From contig JAAWBG010000023.1 in the NCBI GenBank assembly GCA_022792535.1, positions 1-33,300 of the forward strand: a stretch of 33,300 nt of DNA, in the 5' to 3' direction. The DNA is from Lachnospiraceae bacterium. Lineage in GTDB: Bacteria; Bacillota; Clostridia; Lachnospirales; Lachnospiraceae. The notes under the pieces were generated by a model. It saw nothing but the letters and a program-made list of their open reading frames with translations. It searched no databases and was not told where the DNA came from. Shown here piece by piece: positions 2,500-33,300 of this stretch. The position numbers were made by a program, and so were the translations under genes. Position 1 is the stretch's first letter. Every line of letters begins with the position of its first letter.

Positions 2500-2564
2500 G
2501 GTAACAGTTTAAAAGCAGTTTGCAAAAAAATAATAGAAATATAAAATATAAGGAGAAAATCATT

Positions 2565-3860
2565 ATGTTAGATATGAAATTTGTACGGGAAAATCCGGAT
2601 ATTGTAAAGCAGAATATTAAAAATAAATTTCAGGATCAAAAGCTGGAGCTGGTAGATGAAGTGATTGCATTAGACGCAGAAAAGCGTGCGGCTCAGCAGG
2701 AGGCAGACAATCTGCGCGGAGCACGGAATAAGCTTTCCAAGCAAATCGGCGCATTGATGGGGCAGGGAAAGAAAGAAGAAGCTGAAGAGATTAAAAAGCA
2801 GGTTGCGGCGGAAGCTGACAGACTTGCCGTACTTTCGGAAAAAGAAAAAGAGCTGGATGAAAAGATTTTAAAAATTATGATGACAATTCCCAACATTATA
2901 GATCCGAGTGTTCCGATTGGAAAGGATGACAGCGAAAATGTTGAGGTTCAGCGTTATGGAGATCCGGTAGTACCTGATTTTGAAATTCCTTACCATACGG
3001 AAATTATGGAGAAGTTCAATGGAATTGATTTGGACAGCGCCAGAAAAGTTGCCGGAAATGGATTTTATTATCTGATGGGAGATATTGCGAGACTGCATTC
3101 TGCAGTGATTTCTTATGCCAGGGATTTTATGATCAACAGGGGCTTTACTTACTGCGTGCCTCCCTTTATGATCCGCAGTAATGTGGTGACAGGCGTGATG
3201 AGTTTTGCAGAGATGGACGCCATGATGTATAAGATTGAAGGAGAAGACCTGTATCTGATCGGAACCAGCGAACATTCTATGATCGGAAAATTCATCGACA
3301 CCATCTTAAATGAGGAACAGCTGCCTCAGACGCTGACCAGCTATTCCCCCTGTTTCCGAAAGGAAAAAGGCGCCCATGGAATTGAGGAGCGGGGAGTTTA
3401 CCGCATTCATCAGTTTGAAAAGCAAGAGATGATTGTAGTCTGCAAGCCAGAGGAATCTCCCATGTGGTTTGAAAAACTGTGGCAGAATACCGTGGATCTA
3501 TTCCGTTCTCTGGATGTTCCAGTACGTACGTTAGAGTGCTGTTCTGGAGATTTGGCAGATCTGAAAGTAAAATCCATAGATGTGGAAGCATGGTCTCCAA
3601 GACAGCAGAAATATTTTGAAGTAGGAAGCTGTTCCAATTTAGGAGACGCTCAGGCTAGAAGATTAAAAATCCGGGTAACAGGAAAGGGTGGAAAATATTT
3701 TGCCCATACTCTAAACAACACGGTGGTAGCGCCTCCTCGTATGCTGATTGCATTTTTAGAAAATAATCTCTGTGCAGACGGAAGCGTACGAATTCCAGAA
3801 GCGCTGCGGCCTTACATGGGCGGACAGGAAAAGATTGTTCCGCCTGATACACAGAAATAA
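2565..3860 (+). CDS. serS: seryl-tRNA synthetase (copy 1, complete)
   Basis: This class II aminoacyl-tRNA synthetase charges tRNA-Ser (and tRNA-Sec) with serine in the cytoplasm. The 431-residue product has the full family layout: an N-terminal two-helix coiled-coil arm that grips the tRNA long arm (roughly residues 30-100), the serine-site motif GTSEHSM, motif 2 (FRKEKGAHGIEERGVYRIHQ) and motif 3 (VAPPRMLIAFLEN). The start is ATG 2565, with AGGAGA 9 bases upstream. An earlier TTG in frame is not needed. A second serS begins at 32675. Bases 3051-3190 of this gene are identical to 33161-33300 of that paralogue, although the upstream halves differ clearly. Confidence 0.97.
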   Translation: MLDMKFVRENPDIVKQNIKNKFQDQKLELVDEVIALDAEKRAAQQEADNLRGARNKLSKQIGALMGQGKKEEAEEIKKQVAAEADRLAVLSEKEKELDEKILKIMMTIPNIIDPSVPIGKDDSENVEVQRYGDPVVPDFEIPYHTEIMEKFNGIDLDSARKVAGNGFYYLMGDIARLHSAVISYARDFMINRGFTYCVPPFMIRSNVVTGVMSFAEMDAMMYKIEGEDLYLIGTSEHSMIGKFIDTILNEEQLPQTLTSYSPCFRKEKGAHGIEERGVYRIHQFEKQEMIVVCKPEESPMWFEKLWQNTVDLFRSLDVPVRTLECCSGDLADLKVKSIDVEAWSPRQQKYFEVGSCSNLGDAQARRLKIRVTGKGGKYFAHTLNNTVVAPPRMLIAFLENNLCADGSVRIPEALRPYMGGQEKIVPPDTQK

Positions 3861-7715: not shown

Positions 7716-8405
7716 ATGTTTATGTTTTTATCACACCCATTAGATCCCGATGGATATGCATGGCCCGGAGAACCAGTGGTATCTACCAAACAATGTACAG
7801 ACGTGTCCGAGGAAACCCCATTCTGCAGTTTTATTTCAGAGCTTCCAAATCACTGCGGTACTCATATGGATGCACCTCGTCACTTTGTAAAAGACGGATT
7901 AGACATCAATGAACTTCCCATTGAGTACTTCTGCCACACAGAAGTAGCGCTTTTAGATATTCCAAAAGGACCGGCAGAGGGAATCCACAAAGCAGATTTA
8001 GAACCATTTGCAGATACTTTGTCCAAAGTTTCTTTTGCATTGATCCGTACCGGAATGGAGCAGTATCGCGATACCAATCAGAATCTGTACCAGAATGAAG
8101 GGGCATACATTGCGCCAGATGCTGGGGATTATCTCACAGAGACCTTCCCGAATCTGAAAGGTGTGGGAATGGACTTCCTCGCAATTGGATCTGCTTCTTC
8201 TAAGTGTCCAGAAGGGGAACTTCCGCCAGACTGCCACAGACATATGTTAGGATATTACACCGGAAAATTTGTAACTGGAGTAGAAGATATGCATTTGTCA
8301 GAGATTCCAAAGGGCGCAAAGATCACAAGATTCTTCAACGCACCTCTTCGGATCAAAGGATTAGATTCCAGCCAGGTAGTATGTATTGCTGAGATTGAAG
8401 ATTAA
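7716..8405 (+). CDS. cyclase family protein (kynurenine formamidase-like metal hydrolase)
   Basis: This superfamily contains metal-dependent amidases and hydrolases such as bacterial kynurenine formamidase and isatin hydrolase. The 229-residue product carries the metal-binding signature HxGTHxDxPxH as HCGTHMDAPRH (His46, His50, Asp52, His56) and a conserved later block DFLAIGSASSK. The start is ATG 7716, 8 bases after AAGGAGG (7701-7707). An in-frame ATG at 7710 would leave only 2 bases. The gene follows a sugar-acid dehydrogenase and kinase, so its substrate may be a cyclic or amide derivative of a four-carbon acid, for example a lactone, rather than formylkynurenine. That is inference; no tryptophan-pathway gene is nearby. 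Confidence 0.82.
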   Translation: MFMFLSHPLDPDGYAWPGEPVVSTKQCTDVSEETPFCSFISELPNHCGTHMDAPRHFVKDGLDINELPIEYFCHTEVALLDIPKGPAEGIHKADLEPFADTLSKVSFALIRTGMEQYRDTNQNLYQNEGAYIAPDAGDYLTETFPNLKGVGMDFLAIGSASSKCPEGELPPDCHRHMLGYYTGKFVTGVEDMHLSEIPKGAKITRFFNAPLRIKGLDSSQVVCIAEIED

Positions 8406-8514: not shown

Positions 8515-8555
8515 GACTGCTGCATGAGAAGTTTTCATGCAACAGTCCTTTTTTT
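8515..8555 (+). terminator. rho-independent terminator after the sugar-acid operon
   Basis: GACTGCTGCATGA (8515-8527) pairs with TCATGCAACAGTC (8535-8547) with one mismatch and is followed by CC and seven T. It ends the dehydrogenase-kinase-cyclase transcript. About 110 bases after the cyclase stop (8406-8514) show no other clear feature. A structured repeat begins immediately at 8556, the same arrangement as at 29352-29389. Confidence 0.85.
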
Positions 8556-8867
8556 ATCTTATAGGATTAGGGTGTCAAAAACGCCTTTGGCGCTGCACTC
8601 ATACCATATATTGCTATTGCAAGCTTGCTTGCACATCAATATATGGTATAGAGTGGGTGCATCGCACCCTTTTGACACCCGAATCCTTATAGGAAAGACC
8701 TTGTCCCGCTAAAGCGTGAAAGTATATTCCTATAAGATAAAAATAATATGCGCACTCGCACAAGAGGTAAAAGATTGCTTCGCAATTGTGCTCGGCGCAG
8801 CAAACCGTCCAGGGCCCTCATGAGTGAGGGATTCAGGGAGTTGAAGCGGACCTGTCCGCTTTGTTCT
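8556..8867 (+). repeat. structured multi-hairpin repeat, copy A (interrupted by a small inverted-repeat element)
   Basis: Apart from the insertion at 8565-8685 and its duplicated flank, this noncoding sequence is roughly 85-90% identical by eye to 29389-29572. It contains a series of hairpins: CTTATAGGAA against TTCCTATAAG; GCGCACTCGCACAA (8750-8763) against TTGTGCTCGGCGC (8786-8798) with ATTGC-TTC-GCAAT nested inside; CCCTCA-TGAG-TGAGGG (8815-8830); and AAGCGGAC-CT-GTCCGCTT (8844-8861). The last stem differs from copy B by two compensatory pair changes. TTGTCC and TATATT 16 bp apart (8701-8728) resemble a promoter. It ends about 25 bases before lacZ, so the lacZ leader may contain this structure. 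I do not recognise the family. Confidence 0.8.
8565..8685. mobile_element. MITE-like inverted-repeat element (long form) inserted in the structured repeat
   Basis: This 121-bp element has terminal inverted repeats GATTAGGGTGTCAAAA (8565-8580) and TTTTGACACCCGAATC (8670-8685), matching at 15 of 16 positions. It is flanked by a perfect 7-bp direct repeat CTTATAG (8558-8564 and 8686-8692), a probable target-site duplication. An inner inverted repeat (8596-8613 against 8637-8655, built on ATACCATATATTG) makes it one long cruciform. It encodes nothing. A shorter relative lies at 23842-23895. Confidence 0.75.
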
Positions 8868-21795: not shown

Positions 21796-21817
21796 GGGAT
21801 AAAATGATAGGATAAAA

Positions 21818-21921
21818 GGGGCTGTTGCAAAATGGCAGATTCCTACAAGATAATGTGCAAATATGATTGCTGTTATAACCATATCTTGTAGAACTGCCAT
21901 ATTTTGCAACGGCCCCTTTTT
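21818..21921. terminator. long hairpin terminator between glyA and the chemoreceptor gene
   Basis: GGGGCTGTTGCAAAAT (from 21818) pairs with ATTTTGCAACGGCCCC (to 21916). A further inner match joins GGCAG and CTACAAGAT with ATCTTGTAG and CTGCC, giving a stem of over 30 bp with few bulges. TTTTT follows on the plus strand and AAAA precedes it, so it can end both glyA (plus) and the convergent receptor gene (minus). It is longer than a usual terminator and could derive from a palindromic repeat element. Confidence 0.8.
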
Positions 21922-28022: not shown

Positions 28023-29276
28023 ATGTTAGAAAATATCAGATTGTCTTTTCAGGGACTGTGGTCACATAAAATGCGTTCCTTTCTTACCATGCTTGGTATC
28101 ATTATCGGTATTGCAGCGATCATAGCAATTGTCTCAACGATTAAGGGAACCAATGAGCAGATTAAAGAGAATTTGATCGGTTCAGGTGACAATACAGTGA
28201 ATGTACAGCTTTATCAGGGAGATAACACTTACGAACTGGATTATTATGGAGTTCCAGACGGAGTACCTGTTATTACAGAGGAAGTCCGGGAAAAAATACT
28301 GGAGCTTGGACATGTGGAAGGAGCTTCCTTATATACATCGAGAGAAGCTTATAATGTGGTGTATTACCAGAACGCAGGATTGTCCGGCGGACAGATACGG
28401 GGAATTGATAGAAATTATCTGGATGCCTGCAATTATATTGTCAAAAAAGGCAGAGGATTTACAGAATCAGATTATAAGAATTTTCGTAAAGTCGCAGTGC
28501 TGGATGAAGATTCTGCCGAGACTTTATTTCAGGGAGAAGAACCTGTAGGGAAGACTTTGGAAATTCAGCGGGAACCATTTACCGTAGTAGGCGTCATAAC
28601 CAAATCCTCTAAATTTGAACCAGTAATCAACAACATAGATGAGTACTATACTTATGCGGAATCCAACAATGGGGCAGTCTATGTGCCGGATACCACGTGG
28701 CCCATGCTGTATGGATATGATGAACCGCAGTCTCTGGTATTGAGATTAGACAGTGTGGATAATATGACTGTGGCCGGACGGGAGGCATCCGCAATACTGA
28801 ATACAGGTTTAAATGTTTCGGACGATACCATTAAATATAAGGCCGACGATCTTTTGAAACAGGCAGAAGACATTCAGAAGCTCAGTCAGTCAACCAATAC
28901 CATGTTGATCTGGATCGCAGGAATCTCACTTTTGGTAGGAGGTATCGGCGTTATGAATATTATGCTGGTGTCCGTCACAGAGAGAACCCAGGAAATTGGA
29001 TTAAAAAAAGCAATCGGAGCCAGAAAAGGCAATATCCTGGGGCAGTTTCTGACGGAAGCTGCAGTGTTAACCAGCCTGGGGGGATTGATCGGCGTGATTG
29101 TGGGAATCGTTTTAGCGGAAGTGATTTCTAAGATGACCAATACCCTGGTAGCTATCAGCGTGCCTGCGGCAATATTGGCAGTGGCATTTTCTATGGCAAT
29201 CGGAATTGTTTTCGGGCTGCTGCCTTCTTATAAAGCGGCAAATCTGGATCCGATTGAAGCGCTGCGTCATGAATAG
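28023..29276 (+). CDS. ABC transporter permease (MacB/FtsX family)
   Basis: The permease carries mechanotransmission-type export with the ATPase at 25675. The 417-residue product has the MacB layout: a short cytoplasmic start (SHKMRSFLTMLGIIIGI), TM1 (about 19-39), a large extracellular MacB-core domain (about 45-280), three more TM segments in the last 130 residues, and the conserved TERTQEIGLKKAIGA coupling motif and LDPIEALRHE terminus. The start ATG has AGAAGGAG upstream, 25 bases after the second adaptor. A terminator at 29352-29388 follows. The substrate is unknown; peptides or antimicrobials are typical of the family. Confidence 0.95.
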   Translation: MLENIRLSFQGLWSHKMRSFLTMLGIIIGIAAIIAIVSTIKGTNEQIKENLIGSGDNTVNVQLYQGDNTYELDYYGVPDGVPVITEEVREKILELGHVEGASLYTSREAYNVVYYQNAGLSGGQIRGIDRNYLDACNYIVKKGRGFTESDYKNFRKVAVLDEDSAETLFQGEEPVGKTLEIQREPFTVVGVITKSSKFEPVINNIDEYYTYAESNNGAVYVPDTTWPMLYGYDEPQSLVLRLDSVDNMTVAGREASAILNTGLNVSDDTIKYKADDLLKQAEDIQKLSQSTNTMLIWIAGISLLVGGIGVMNIMLVSVTERTQEIGLKKAIGARKGNILGQFLTEAAVLTSLGGLIGVIVGIVLAEVISKMTNTLVAISVPAAILAVAFSMAIGIVFGLLPSYKAANLDPIEALRHE

Positions 29277-29351
29277 GACGGTGAGGACAGGAGTATCAGG
29301 CAGACGCCAGGAAGCCATGAGAGAACCATAGAGGTAAATAATAGAGATCAA

Positions 29352-29388
29352 ATACTGTTGCAAACATCACGTTGCAGCAGTATTTTTT
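29352..29388 (+). terminator. rho-independent terminator of the exporter operon
   Basis: ATACTGTTGCAA (29352-29363) pairs with TTGCAGCAGTAT (29372-29383) with one mismatch and is followed by six T. A structured repeat starts right after it (29389). The terminator at 8515-8555 stands in the same relation to the other repeat copy and shares a TGCA-rich stem and T-run. Confidence 0.88.
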
Positions 29389-29607
29389 ATCTTATAGGAA
29401 AGACTTTGTCACGCTAAAGCGTGAAAGTATCTTTCCTATAAGATAAAAATAATATGCGCACTCGCACAAGAGGTAAAATATTGCTTCGCAATTGTGCTCG
29501 GCGCGCAAAATGTCCAGGCCCCTCATGAGTGAGGGGTTAGGGGAGCTGAAGTGGGCCTGCCCACTTTGTTCTCTTATAGGAAATTCCTTCGGATCTCCTA
29601 ATAAGAT
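29389..29607 (+). repeat. structured multi-hairpin repeat, copy B (uninterrupted)
   Basis: This 219-bp noncoding element is bounded by ATCTTATAGGA (29389-29399) and TCCTAATAAGAT (29596-29607), near-perfect inverted ends. Inside are five stems. They are a long hairpin with perfect 15-bp arms (29389-29403 and 29430-29444) capped by TCACGC-TAAA-GCGTGA; GCGCACTCGCACAA (29456-29469) against TTGTGCTCGGCGC (29492-29504); CCCCTCATGAGTGAGGGG (29519-29536); AAGTGGGC-CT-GCCCACTT (29549-29566); and a last imperfect stem. TTGTCA (29406-29411) and TATCTT (29428-29433), 16 bp apart, resemble a promoter, as in copy A. No coding potential is seen and I recognise no known RNA family. Confidence 0.82.
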
Positions 29608-29625
29608 AAAAAAGAATTATTGCAC

Positions 29626-29694
29626 TGCGGCGGAAAGGAAATGAACCGCGGGAGCGGTCCGCCGCAGGCAGAGAATCTTGCTAAGCAGGATTCT
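29626..29694. repeat. two further hairpins upstream of the LytTR operon
   Basis: TGCGGCGGA (29626-29634) pairs with TCCGCCGCA (29658-29666). A second compact stem spans 29672-29694, with AGAATC at one end and GATTCT at the other and an 11-bp stem allowing one wobble pair, followed by TTCTT. The second may be a weak terminator or an operator. Both lie before the promoter at 29740. Bases 29277-29351, after the permease, show nothing further. Confidence 0.5.
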
Positions 29695-29739
29695 TTCTTG
29701 TATCTTGAAGGACAATAAGTGCATCTTCCGGAAATCTGG

Positions 29740-32585: not shown

Positions 32586-32674
32586 TTTAAGAATGAAAAT
32601 TCAGATATATATTTGACATAATGTAAAGTGGAAGATAATGATTTCCGTTGAGGGAAGAAAACAGGAGGAAAATA

Positions 32675-33300
32675 ATGATTGATTTAAAATTTCTAAGAGA
32701 GAATCCAGAAGTGGTAAAACAGAATATCAAGAACAAATTTCAGGACAGCAAACTGCCTTTGGTGGACGAGGTGATCGAGCTGGATGCTCAGGCCAGAAAG
32801 ACCCAGCAGGAAGCAGACGCACTGCGGGCAGAACGCAAAAAATTGTCCAAGCAGATTGGCGCGTTAATGGGACAGGGCAAAAAAGAAGAAGCAGAAGAAA
32901 TTAAGGCACAGGTAAATGCAGGGGCAGAACGTCTGGCAGAGCTGGAACAGTTAGAGGGAGAACTTCAGGAAAAAGTGACCAAGATTATGATGACAATTCC
33001 AAATATCATTGACCCTTCTGTTCCCATTGGAAAAGACGACAGCGAGAATGTGGAGGTACAGAAATACGGAGAGCCGGTGACGCCGGATTTTGAGATTCCT
33101 TATCATGCAGAGATTATGGAACGTTTTCAGGGACTGGATCTTGACAGCGCCAGGAAAGTAGCCGGAAATGGATTTTATTATCTGATGGGAGATATTGCGA
33201 GACTGCATTCTGCAGTGATTTCTTATGCCAGGGATTTTATGATCAACAGGGGCTTTACTTACTGCGTGCCTCCCTTTATGATCCGCAGTAATGTGGTGAC
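32675..33300 (+). CDS. serS: seryl-tRNA synthetase (copy 2, 3' end beyond the window)
   Basis: The first 208 codons of a second seryl-tRNA synthetase are visible, beginning MIDLKFLRENPEVVKQNI, with AGGAGG (32663-32668) 6 bases upstream. The N-terminal coiled-coil arm and the start of the catalytic domain align with copy 1 without gaps, but with many substitutions up to base 33160. From 33161 to the window end the DNA is identical to 3051-3190. The catalytic motifs lie beyond the window, so whether this copy is intact cannot be judged. Two SerRS genes may reflect resistance to a serine-mimicking inhibitor, differing expression, or simple duplication. Confidence 0.93.
   Translation, partial: MIDLKFLRENPEVVKQNIKNKFQDSKLPLVDEVIELDAQARKTQQEADALRAERKKLSKQIGALMGQGKKEEAEEIKAQVNAGAERLAELEQLEGELQEKVTKIMMTIPNIIDPSVPIGKDDSENVEVQKYGEPVTPDFEIPYHAEIMERFQGLDLDSARKVAGNGFYYLMGDIARLHSAVISYARDFMINRGFTYCVPPFMIRSNVV
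33161..33300 (+). repeat. 140-bp direct repeat shared by the two serS genes
   Basis: These bases match 3051-3190 exactly, offset by 30,110 bp. The base just before (33160, A) differs from its counterpart (3050, T), and upstream the two genes differ at many positions. The repeat reaches the window edge, so its true length is unknown. Confidence 0.95.

Follow-up and report, generated by a model that had tools for sequence, protein, structure and literature searches.

Multicopy intergenic repeats of a Lachnospiraceae bacterium, probable non-autonomous derivatives of IS91-family transposons, are found beside intrinsic terminators

Two structured repeats in the window

The window analysed here is a stretch of 33,300 nt from a Lachnospiraceae bacterium (positions 1 to 33,300 of contig JAAWBG010000023.1). 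A first-pass annotation of this DNA had described two noncoding copies of a repeat with common, ordered hairpins at about 8556 and 29389, and reading of the sequence confirmed them. Copy A occupies positions 8557 to 8866 on the plus strand. Its target site is an intrinsic terminator on the same strand (8515..8556; stem 8515-8527/8536-8548 plus T-run), which was read from the sequence, probably belongs to the gene ending at 8405, and falls under the class-wide test for a hairpin and T-run upstream of such elements described below. Comparison with autonomous IS91 elements gives TCTTATAGG and GTTC as the ends of copy A. Three modules follow each other on the plus strand: H (8686..8746), the hairpin of the left, ori-like end; A1 (8747..8800), a long branched stem (P1-P3) with the strongest covariation; and A2 (8801..8866), which forms the ter-like end, contains P4 and P6 as well as the alternative long-range stem P5, and terminates in GTTC. 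The H hairpin is split by an unrelated palindromic element (8565..8685, strand not assigned) with the ends GATTAGGGTGTC and GACACCCGAATC, 16-nt imperfect terminal inverted repeats and a 7-nt direct repeat, CTTATAG, at 8558-8564 and 8686-8692. Copy A is longer than copy B because this separate 121-nt element is nested in its first hairpin. The 121-nt element is multicopy in the genus, and it adjoins or interrupts H hairpins repeatedly (also in L011, L062 and L069).

Copy B lies behind the intrinsic terminator (29350..29389, plus strand) of an ABC-permease-like gene that ends at 29276, and consists of two consecutive units on the plus strand. The first (29390..29571) has the structure H-A1-A2 and the ends TCTTATAGG and GTTC; the second (29572..29700), directly 3' of this GTTC, has a short H, a B body and the terminus CTTG. 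That the terminator is the target site is indicated by its sequence and by relatives: six have retained the genes on both sides within the stretch compared, and all six lack the element. In L155, the gene, the terminator and the next promoter are present without the element.

Across the loci, the H hairpin has the arms TCTTATAGGAAA and TTTCCTATAAGA, A1 contains a conserved purine-rich inner loop, and the B body, by eye, is an A1-like stem followed by a hairpin with the terminus CTTG. Units are of the types H-A1-A2, H-B, and H with a short tail (90 nt). They stand singly or head to tail, and A and B bodies have the same orientation within a locus (41 loci of the window's genome examined).

Two further features of the window were noted. 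At 21814-21920 there is a terminator-shaped long inverted repeat with 39-nt arms holding TTCCTACAAGATA and TATCTTGTAGAA, which resembles the H arms in reversed order. Near the window ends, 30.1 kb apart, stretch pairs within 2562-3148 and 32672-33258 are 72-82% identical and are probably paralogous genes.

Copy number and distribution

The annotation had described a repeat of two copies. Both exist, but a covariance model of the body (R1) gave at least 89 matches in the window's genome. The same model yielded 67, 90, 93, 5 and 2 matches in five other genomes of the genus, so that four of the six genomes have 67 to 93; all these counts are lower bounds, as at most 150 candidates were scored per genome. 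At the DNA level, 105 matches were found in the window's own genome, 44 of them at least 130 nt long. Eight of the latter start at base 1 of a contig, and the repeat may therefore account for contig breaks in such genomes.

A DNA search of 61 genomes gave matches in 31, the window's own included, namely in all 29 of the genus and in two others. In the family, 56 of 397 genomes matched, representing 52 of 334 genera, and in the class a model search was positive for 18 of 391 genomes, several from other families. A pattern scan of named genomes had, among the matches listed, Blautia, Roseburia, Butyrivibrio, Anaerostipes, Mediterraneibacter, other Lachnospiraceae, a few other Clostridia and, with doubtful meaning, two Coatesbacteria. 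Phage and plasmid collections contained no match to the repeat. Five viral contigs from IMG/VR (L397-L401) contain the ter-end core, one of them (L397) together with a whole body (96.5 bits), and for this reason the elements may travel on prophages.

Secondary structure and compensatory changes

The stem changes reported initially were found as described. The 3'-most stem, GCGGAC/GTCCGC in copy A (8846-8859), differs by two two-sided changes from the GTGGGC/GCCCAC of copy B, and the middle stem gains one pair in copy B (GCCCTCA..TGAGGGA in A, CCCCTCA..TGAGGGG in B). Homologues were collected and a covariance model was built, as the annotation had proposed, and relatives were found across genus, family and class. 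A model trained on 48 rows, both window copies among them, has just two matches in the window (E=1.6e-33 and 6.9e-32).

The compensatory changes are strong. In the 48 rows, 93.6% of the cells of P1-P4 and P6 are paired, compared with 84.5% after shuffling, and two-sided changes occur at 17 of 28 pairs, in 171 cells versus 60 in shuffled data. For the alternative stem P5 the corresponding values are 82.3% and 77.0%, with 67 two-sided cells versus 22.8. P5 is independently supported, because its covarying pair 78-120 (A-U in 21 rows, G-C in 21) lies in the loop of P6 and is explained by P5, not by P6. Weak spots of P5 are the pairs 74-125 and 75-123, which mostly fail, and 68-128, which fails in 23 of 48 rows. 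H is paired in 91.2% of the cells (84.8% shuffled) and shows 74 two-sided cells versus 19.4; less striking is the number of H pairs with two-sided changes, which is 8 compared with 5.4 after shuffling and was reached in 7 of 500 shuffles.

Whether the covariation goes beyond phylogenetic expectation, a check suggested with the original observation, was addressed with a strict null in which substitutions are shuffled or moved along a tree. On 67 mostly same-genus rows only 2 of 17,955 pairs were significant, both in P3. On 55 diverse rows, in an alignment that was made by the model and leans towards the structure, 11 pairs were significant: 8 in the structure, all of them in A1, and 3 outside.

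Covariation by itself is no proof of a functional RNA. The earlier statement that the motif could not be linked to a known RNA family agrees with Rfam, which gave no match above the gathering score in the window; in 20 related loci it found just T-box, tRNA and c-di-GMP-I. With lax thresholds, 16 weak matches below the gathering scores appeared and were judged to be chance.

Ends shared with IS91-family transposons

The scan of named genomes led to a locus of Butyrivibrio hungatei NK4A153 (L332) in which an H-type end and an A2-type end enclose a 408-aa gene on the opposite strand, whose start lies next to the A2-type end. The 408-aa protein is an IS91-family transposase (NF033538, E=8.3e-93; PF04986, E=1.3e-39; PF14319, E=1e-24). 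Three further transposases from the genus (L414, L407 and L424) likewise belong to the IS91 family, the four tested proteins spanning E=8e-93 to 2e-95 with NF033538, and the transposase of genome G013 shows HUH and Y..Y motifs.

An A2-type right end is located beside the transposase start codon in all 30 distinct close-clade elements for which the gene start and the upstream 110 nt were available (28 by a pattern written after examples had been seen; L419 and L259 by eye). This set is biased, since many of its loci came from a scan with the core of the repeat itself. A genus-wide search with PF04986 is independent of the repeat: among 30 loci retrieved by it the end was present in 12 (11 distinct elements) and absent from 18, which comprise distant transposases (seven at 25-27% identity) or copies with the gene start unmatched. 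Distant-clade PF04986 transposases lack the end of the repeat. As controls, 30 Y1-transposase loci and 40 other loci were scanned with the end pattern; it occurred in one of the former and never in the 275,222 strand-bases of the latter. On the other side of the IS91 elements, the left end core ATAGGAAA was detected in 18 of 21 entries, of which two are one place and some are broken copies.

Two IS91 copies in G013, which differ at 3 of 1585 compared positions, fix the ends of the autonomous element as CTTTATAGG ... TTTGTTC. Over the last 53 nt, the first unit of copy B is identical to this IS91 end at 51 positions and copy A at 44. Both ends are common to the repeats and to transposase-carrying elements, and the two ends are unlike each other, without terminal inverted repeats, in autonomous elements (CTTTATAGG/TTTGTTC) and window units (TCTTATAGG/GTTC) alike. 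The right end is a terminator-like hairpin with the terminus GTTC or CTTG. These are the complements of GAAC and CAAG, two of the IS801 targets (GAAC, GGAC, CAAG and CGAC) given in the available excerpts of PMC3189936, where it is also stated that the left end of IS801 starts with GAAC and that the IS801 transposase acts in trans.

Autonomous and non-autonomous units stand directly behind each other's right ends. In G013, the GTTC of a non-autonomous unit is followed immediately by one of the IS91 copies, a non-autonomous H starts right behind an IS91 end in L327 and L411 (by eye), and L387 contains two IS91 copies in tandem (by eye).

Because the window units have no HUH/Y2 transposase gene and PF04986 (Y2 transposase) has no match in the window's genome (G000, 92.7% complete), we class them as non-autonomous derivatives only. 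PF04986 matches are also missing from 18 of the 29 genus genomes, and from genomes G028 and G017 considered below. The A1 module was seen in no autonomous element.

In 16 of 16 loci checked, the IS91 transposase has a conserved, small and acidic ORF beside it (54-57 aa in two cases; PPEGM..DMD), for example L332:5221-5385 on the minus strand. It is located between the transposase and the ATAGGAAA end, and for the two ORFs tested NCBIfam gave no match and Pfam none above the cut-off.

Insertion sites at intrinsic terminators

At its left end (T/C-TTATAGGAAA, hairpin H), the element tends to lie directly against the T-run of a terminator. We used 132 elements with H and 90 nt of upstream sequence, a set that includes orthologous copies of related genomes and is thus not composed of independent cases. 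TTTT is found close upstream in 111 of them, and a called terminator hairpin (dG -8 or better) before TTTT in 77, compared with 93 of 788 control TTTT sites from the same loci; the enrichment on T-run sites has a Fisher p=4e-37. The remaining 55 copies have no called upstream terminator, and by eye some of them follow other elements' ends or T-runs missed by the rule. At the opposite end, read on the opposite strand, a terminator was called in only 2 of 198 cases, drawn without requiring H and possibly including some autonomous ends. The association with intrinsic terminators, beside which insertion is in one orientation, is well supported.

The four letters before the left end were collected from 112 copies and were TTTA in 45, GTTC in 24, TTTC in 10, CTTG in 7, TTTG in 6 and others in the rest. 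GTTC or CTTG, the termini of the elements themselves, thus precede 31 copies, and the commonest word, TTTA, is not among the published IS91/IS801 targets. In 82 of 112 copies, versus 42.4 expected, the base that precedes the left end has its complement in the right arm of H. Either this base is a part of the element, or the targets are chosen or corrected by pairing.

In L234 and L243, the left end of the element is located about 20 nt behind T-box leaders found by Rfam. In L409 and L233, a sequence resembling a group II intron end (domain V-like, by eye) directly adjoins the H or ori-type end of the element; it looks as if group II introns may land in these hairpins, too.

Filled and empty sites

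Genomes G028 and G017 are a close pair: 14 of 17 compared G028 loci have a partner, with at least 99.2% identity in all alignments. For 12 G028 elements, the flanking sequences were used as queries against G017. Judging from the spacing, both genomes have an element at five of the sites (L437-L441), and at L435 the occupant differs in length; L111 is diverged, L432, L434 and L442 match two different contigs, and L433 was not found. The site L436 is empty in G017: following TTTTTTATTTA, exactly 90 nt make the difference, and apart from an ambiguity of 2 nt nothing is duplicated. It is the one precise empty site, compatible with gain as well as with loss, and the polymorphic 90-nt unit has no A1. 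Together with the two IS91 copies in different flanks, this filled/empty pair indicates that no target-site duplication arises in the resolved cases. Differences between genome pairs at L141/L142 and L117/L120 proved to be other repeats.

Comparison with known systems

Secondary structure has been described for the oriIS and terIS ends of ISCR/IS91 elements (PMC13393415, in the part available). Like members of the IS91 family (IS91, IS801, IS1294, ISCR), the partner elements of the repeats carry an HUH/Y2 transposase, lack terminal inverted repeats and show no target duplication, and their ter end, which adjoins the transposase start, has a hairpin and the GAAC terminus given in excerpts of PMC3189936 (here GTTC, on the other strand). 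Unlike them, the window elements are gene-less, and the clade sits behind intrinsic terminators, mostly after TTTA, with a ter end that is itself terminator-like. Miniature IS801 fragments, which arise by one-ended transposition, are also short IS91-type derivatives with one parental end and a target-like tetranucleotide at the finish; however, in the same excerpts they are simple pieces of the parent element and low in copy number (PMC3189936), whereas the type seen in the window keeps both ends, adds modules not seen in the parent and reaches the high copy numbers given above.

Non-autonomous Helitrons, as far as the accessible text of PMC4778049 describes them, are likewise gene-less rolling-circle derivatives without target duplications and have a hairpin near one end, which serves as a termination signal, but they are eukaryotic and differ in transposase (RepHel) and target. 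The pneumococcal BOX and SPRITE repeats are similar in being modular, structured, multicopy and intergenic, with terminator-like parts and one BOX between T-boxes; they differ in sequence and host, and for BOX no autonomous partner is named in the passages available (PMC3049150).

In titles and abstracts of the open-licence PMC literature, nothing was found on this repeat, on such IS91 satellites in Lachnospiraceae or on IS91 targeting of terminators. A text search of the portion available of a MITE review (PMC10969869) gave no mention of IS91, and the available part of PMC12306157 names neither Blautia nor Clostridia nor Lachnospiraceae. Thousands of gut RNA candidates have been predicted, and parts of the repeat could be among them without a name (PMC8040213, excerpts).

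Alternative explanations

A structured RNA, cis-regulatory or small, that is multicopy by chance and uses a P5/P6 switch at its 3' side as an attenuator for the next gene, would agree with the strong covariation, including the loop pair 78-120 that fits P5 and not P6, with the concentration of significant pairs in A1, and with the position of the copies between terminators and downstream genes, two of them behind T-boxes. We nevertheless consider this quite improbable as the main explanation, since unrelated genes precede the copies, the right end is a transposon end, a 90-nt unit without A1 is polymorphic, and Rfam has no match. The inner module may still have an RNA role. Template-switch correction of imperfect palindromes during replication can also yield paired changes, and it could have acted here on elements whose transposon origin is assigned correctly, so that the changes would not reflect selection on the fold. 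The covarying stems are indeed DNA palindromes, and the base before the left end, which does not belong to the element when TCTTATAGG is taken as the boundary, has its complement inside H more often than expected. However, the long-range stem P5 and the branched A1 stems covary as well, and internal-loop letters are conserved across genera; we therefore regard this explanation as unlikely, though not negligible.

Other mobile elements were considered, too. Intergenic hairpin repeats in arrays, with ends lacking inverted repeats, are reminiscent of REP/RAYT-like elements moved by a Y1 (IS200/IS605-type) transposase. Although Y1 transposase (PF01797) is present in 18 of 29 genus genomes, it has no match in G000 or in the copy-rich genomes G024, G021, G017, G011 and G002; the ends of the repeat sit on Y2 elements, and the end pattern was found in just one of the 30 Y1 loci. 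The matching IS91 ends have largely refuted such an origin, which now appears extremely improbable. Group IIC introns insert behind terminators, and this similarity of target had raised them as candidates, which were dropped once the IS91 elements appeared. A classical MITE does not fit, as terminal inverted repeats and target duplication are both absent.

We conclude that the repeats are very probably non-autonomous, MITE-like derivatives of a Clostridia clade of IS91-family rolling-circle (HUH, two-tyrosine) transposons, and their IS91 origin is close to settled. Of the view that covariation points to selection on a folded RNA or DNA form, the covariation has proved genuine; the idea of an orphan RNA motif has to be given up, given that the right end matches a known transposon end, that of the IS91 family, an outcome which the annotation had itself named as one that would refute its reading. 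The fold is most readily understood as hairpins formed by the DNA of a rolling-circle transposon.

Proposed mechanism and implications

According to the mechanism which we propose, an IS91 transposase supplied in trans would nick the ori-like end, a single strand would be displaced, and the hairpin end would mark termination. The strand would then be joined next to a terminator, where the A-run beside H would pair with the terminator T-run. Since each element carries a terminator-like end, a new target would be regenerated by each insertion, giving rise to head-to-tail arrays. It is tempting to speculate that terminators are chosen by base pairing of the H-hairpin A-run and neighbouring bases with the T-run and the insertion-side base, and that the satellite-specific A1 aids the spread, for example as a second-strand start site on the single-stranded intermediate; we consider this combination possible but rather doubtful.

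Next to a terminator, an element can insert and leave the genes intact, and the insertion brings hairpins into intergenic stretches and behind T-box leaders. Given a rolling-circle transposon of bacteria whose satellites reach scores of copies, form arrays and follow a clear target rule, one can test how IS91 targets are chosen, how bacterial non-autonomous rolling-circle elements arise and how their insertion affects read-through.
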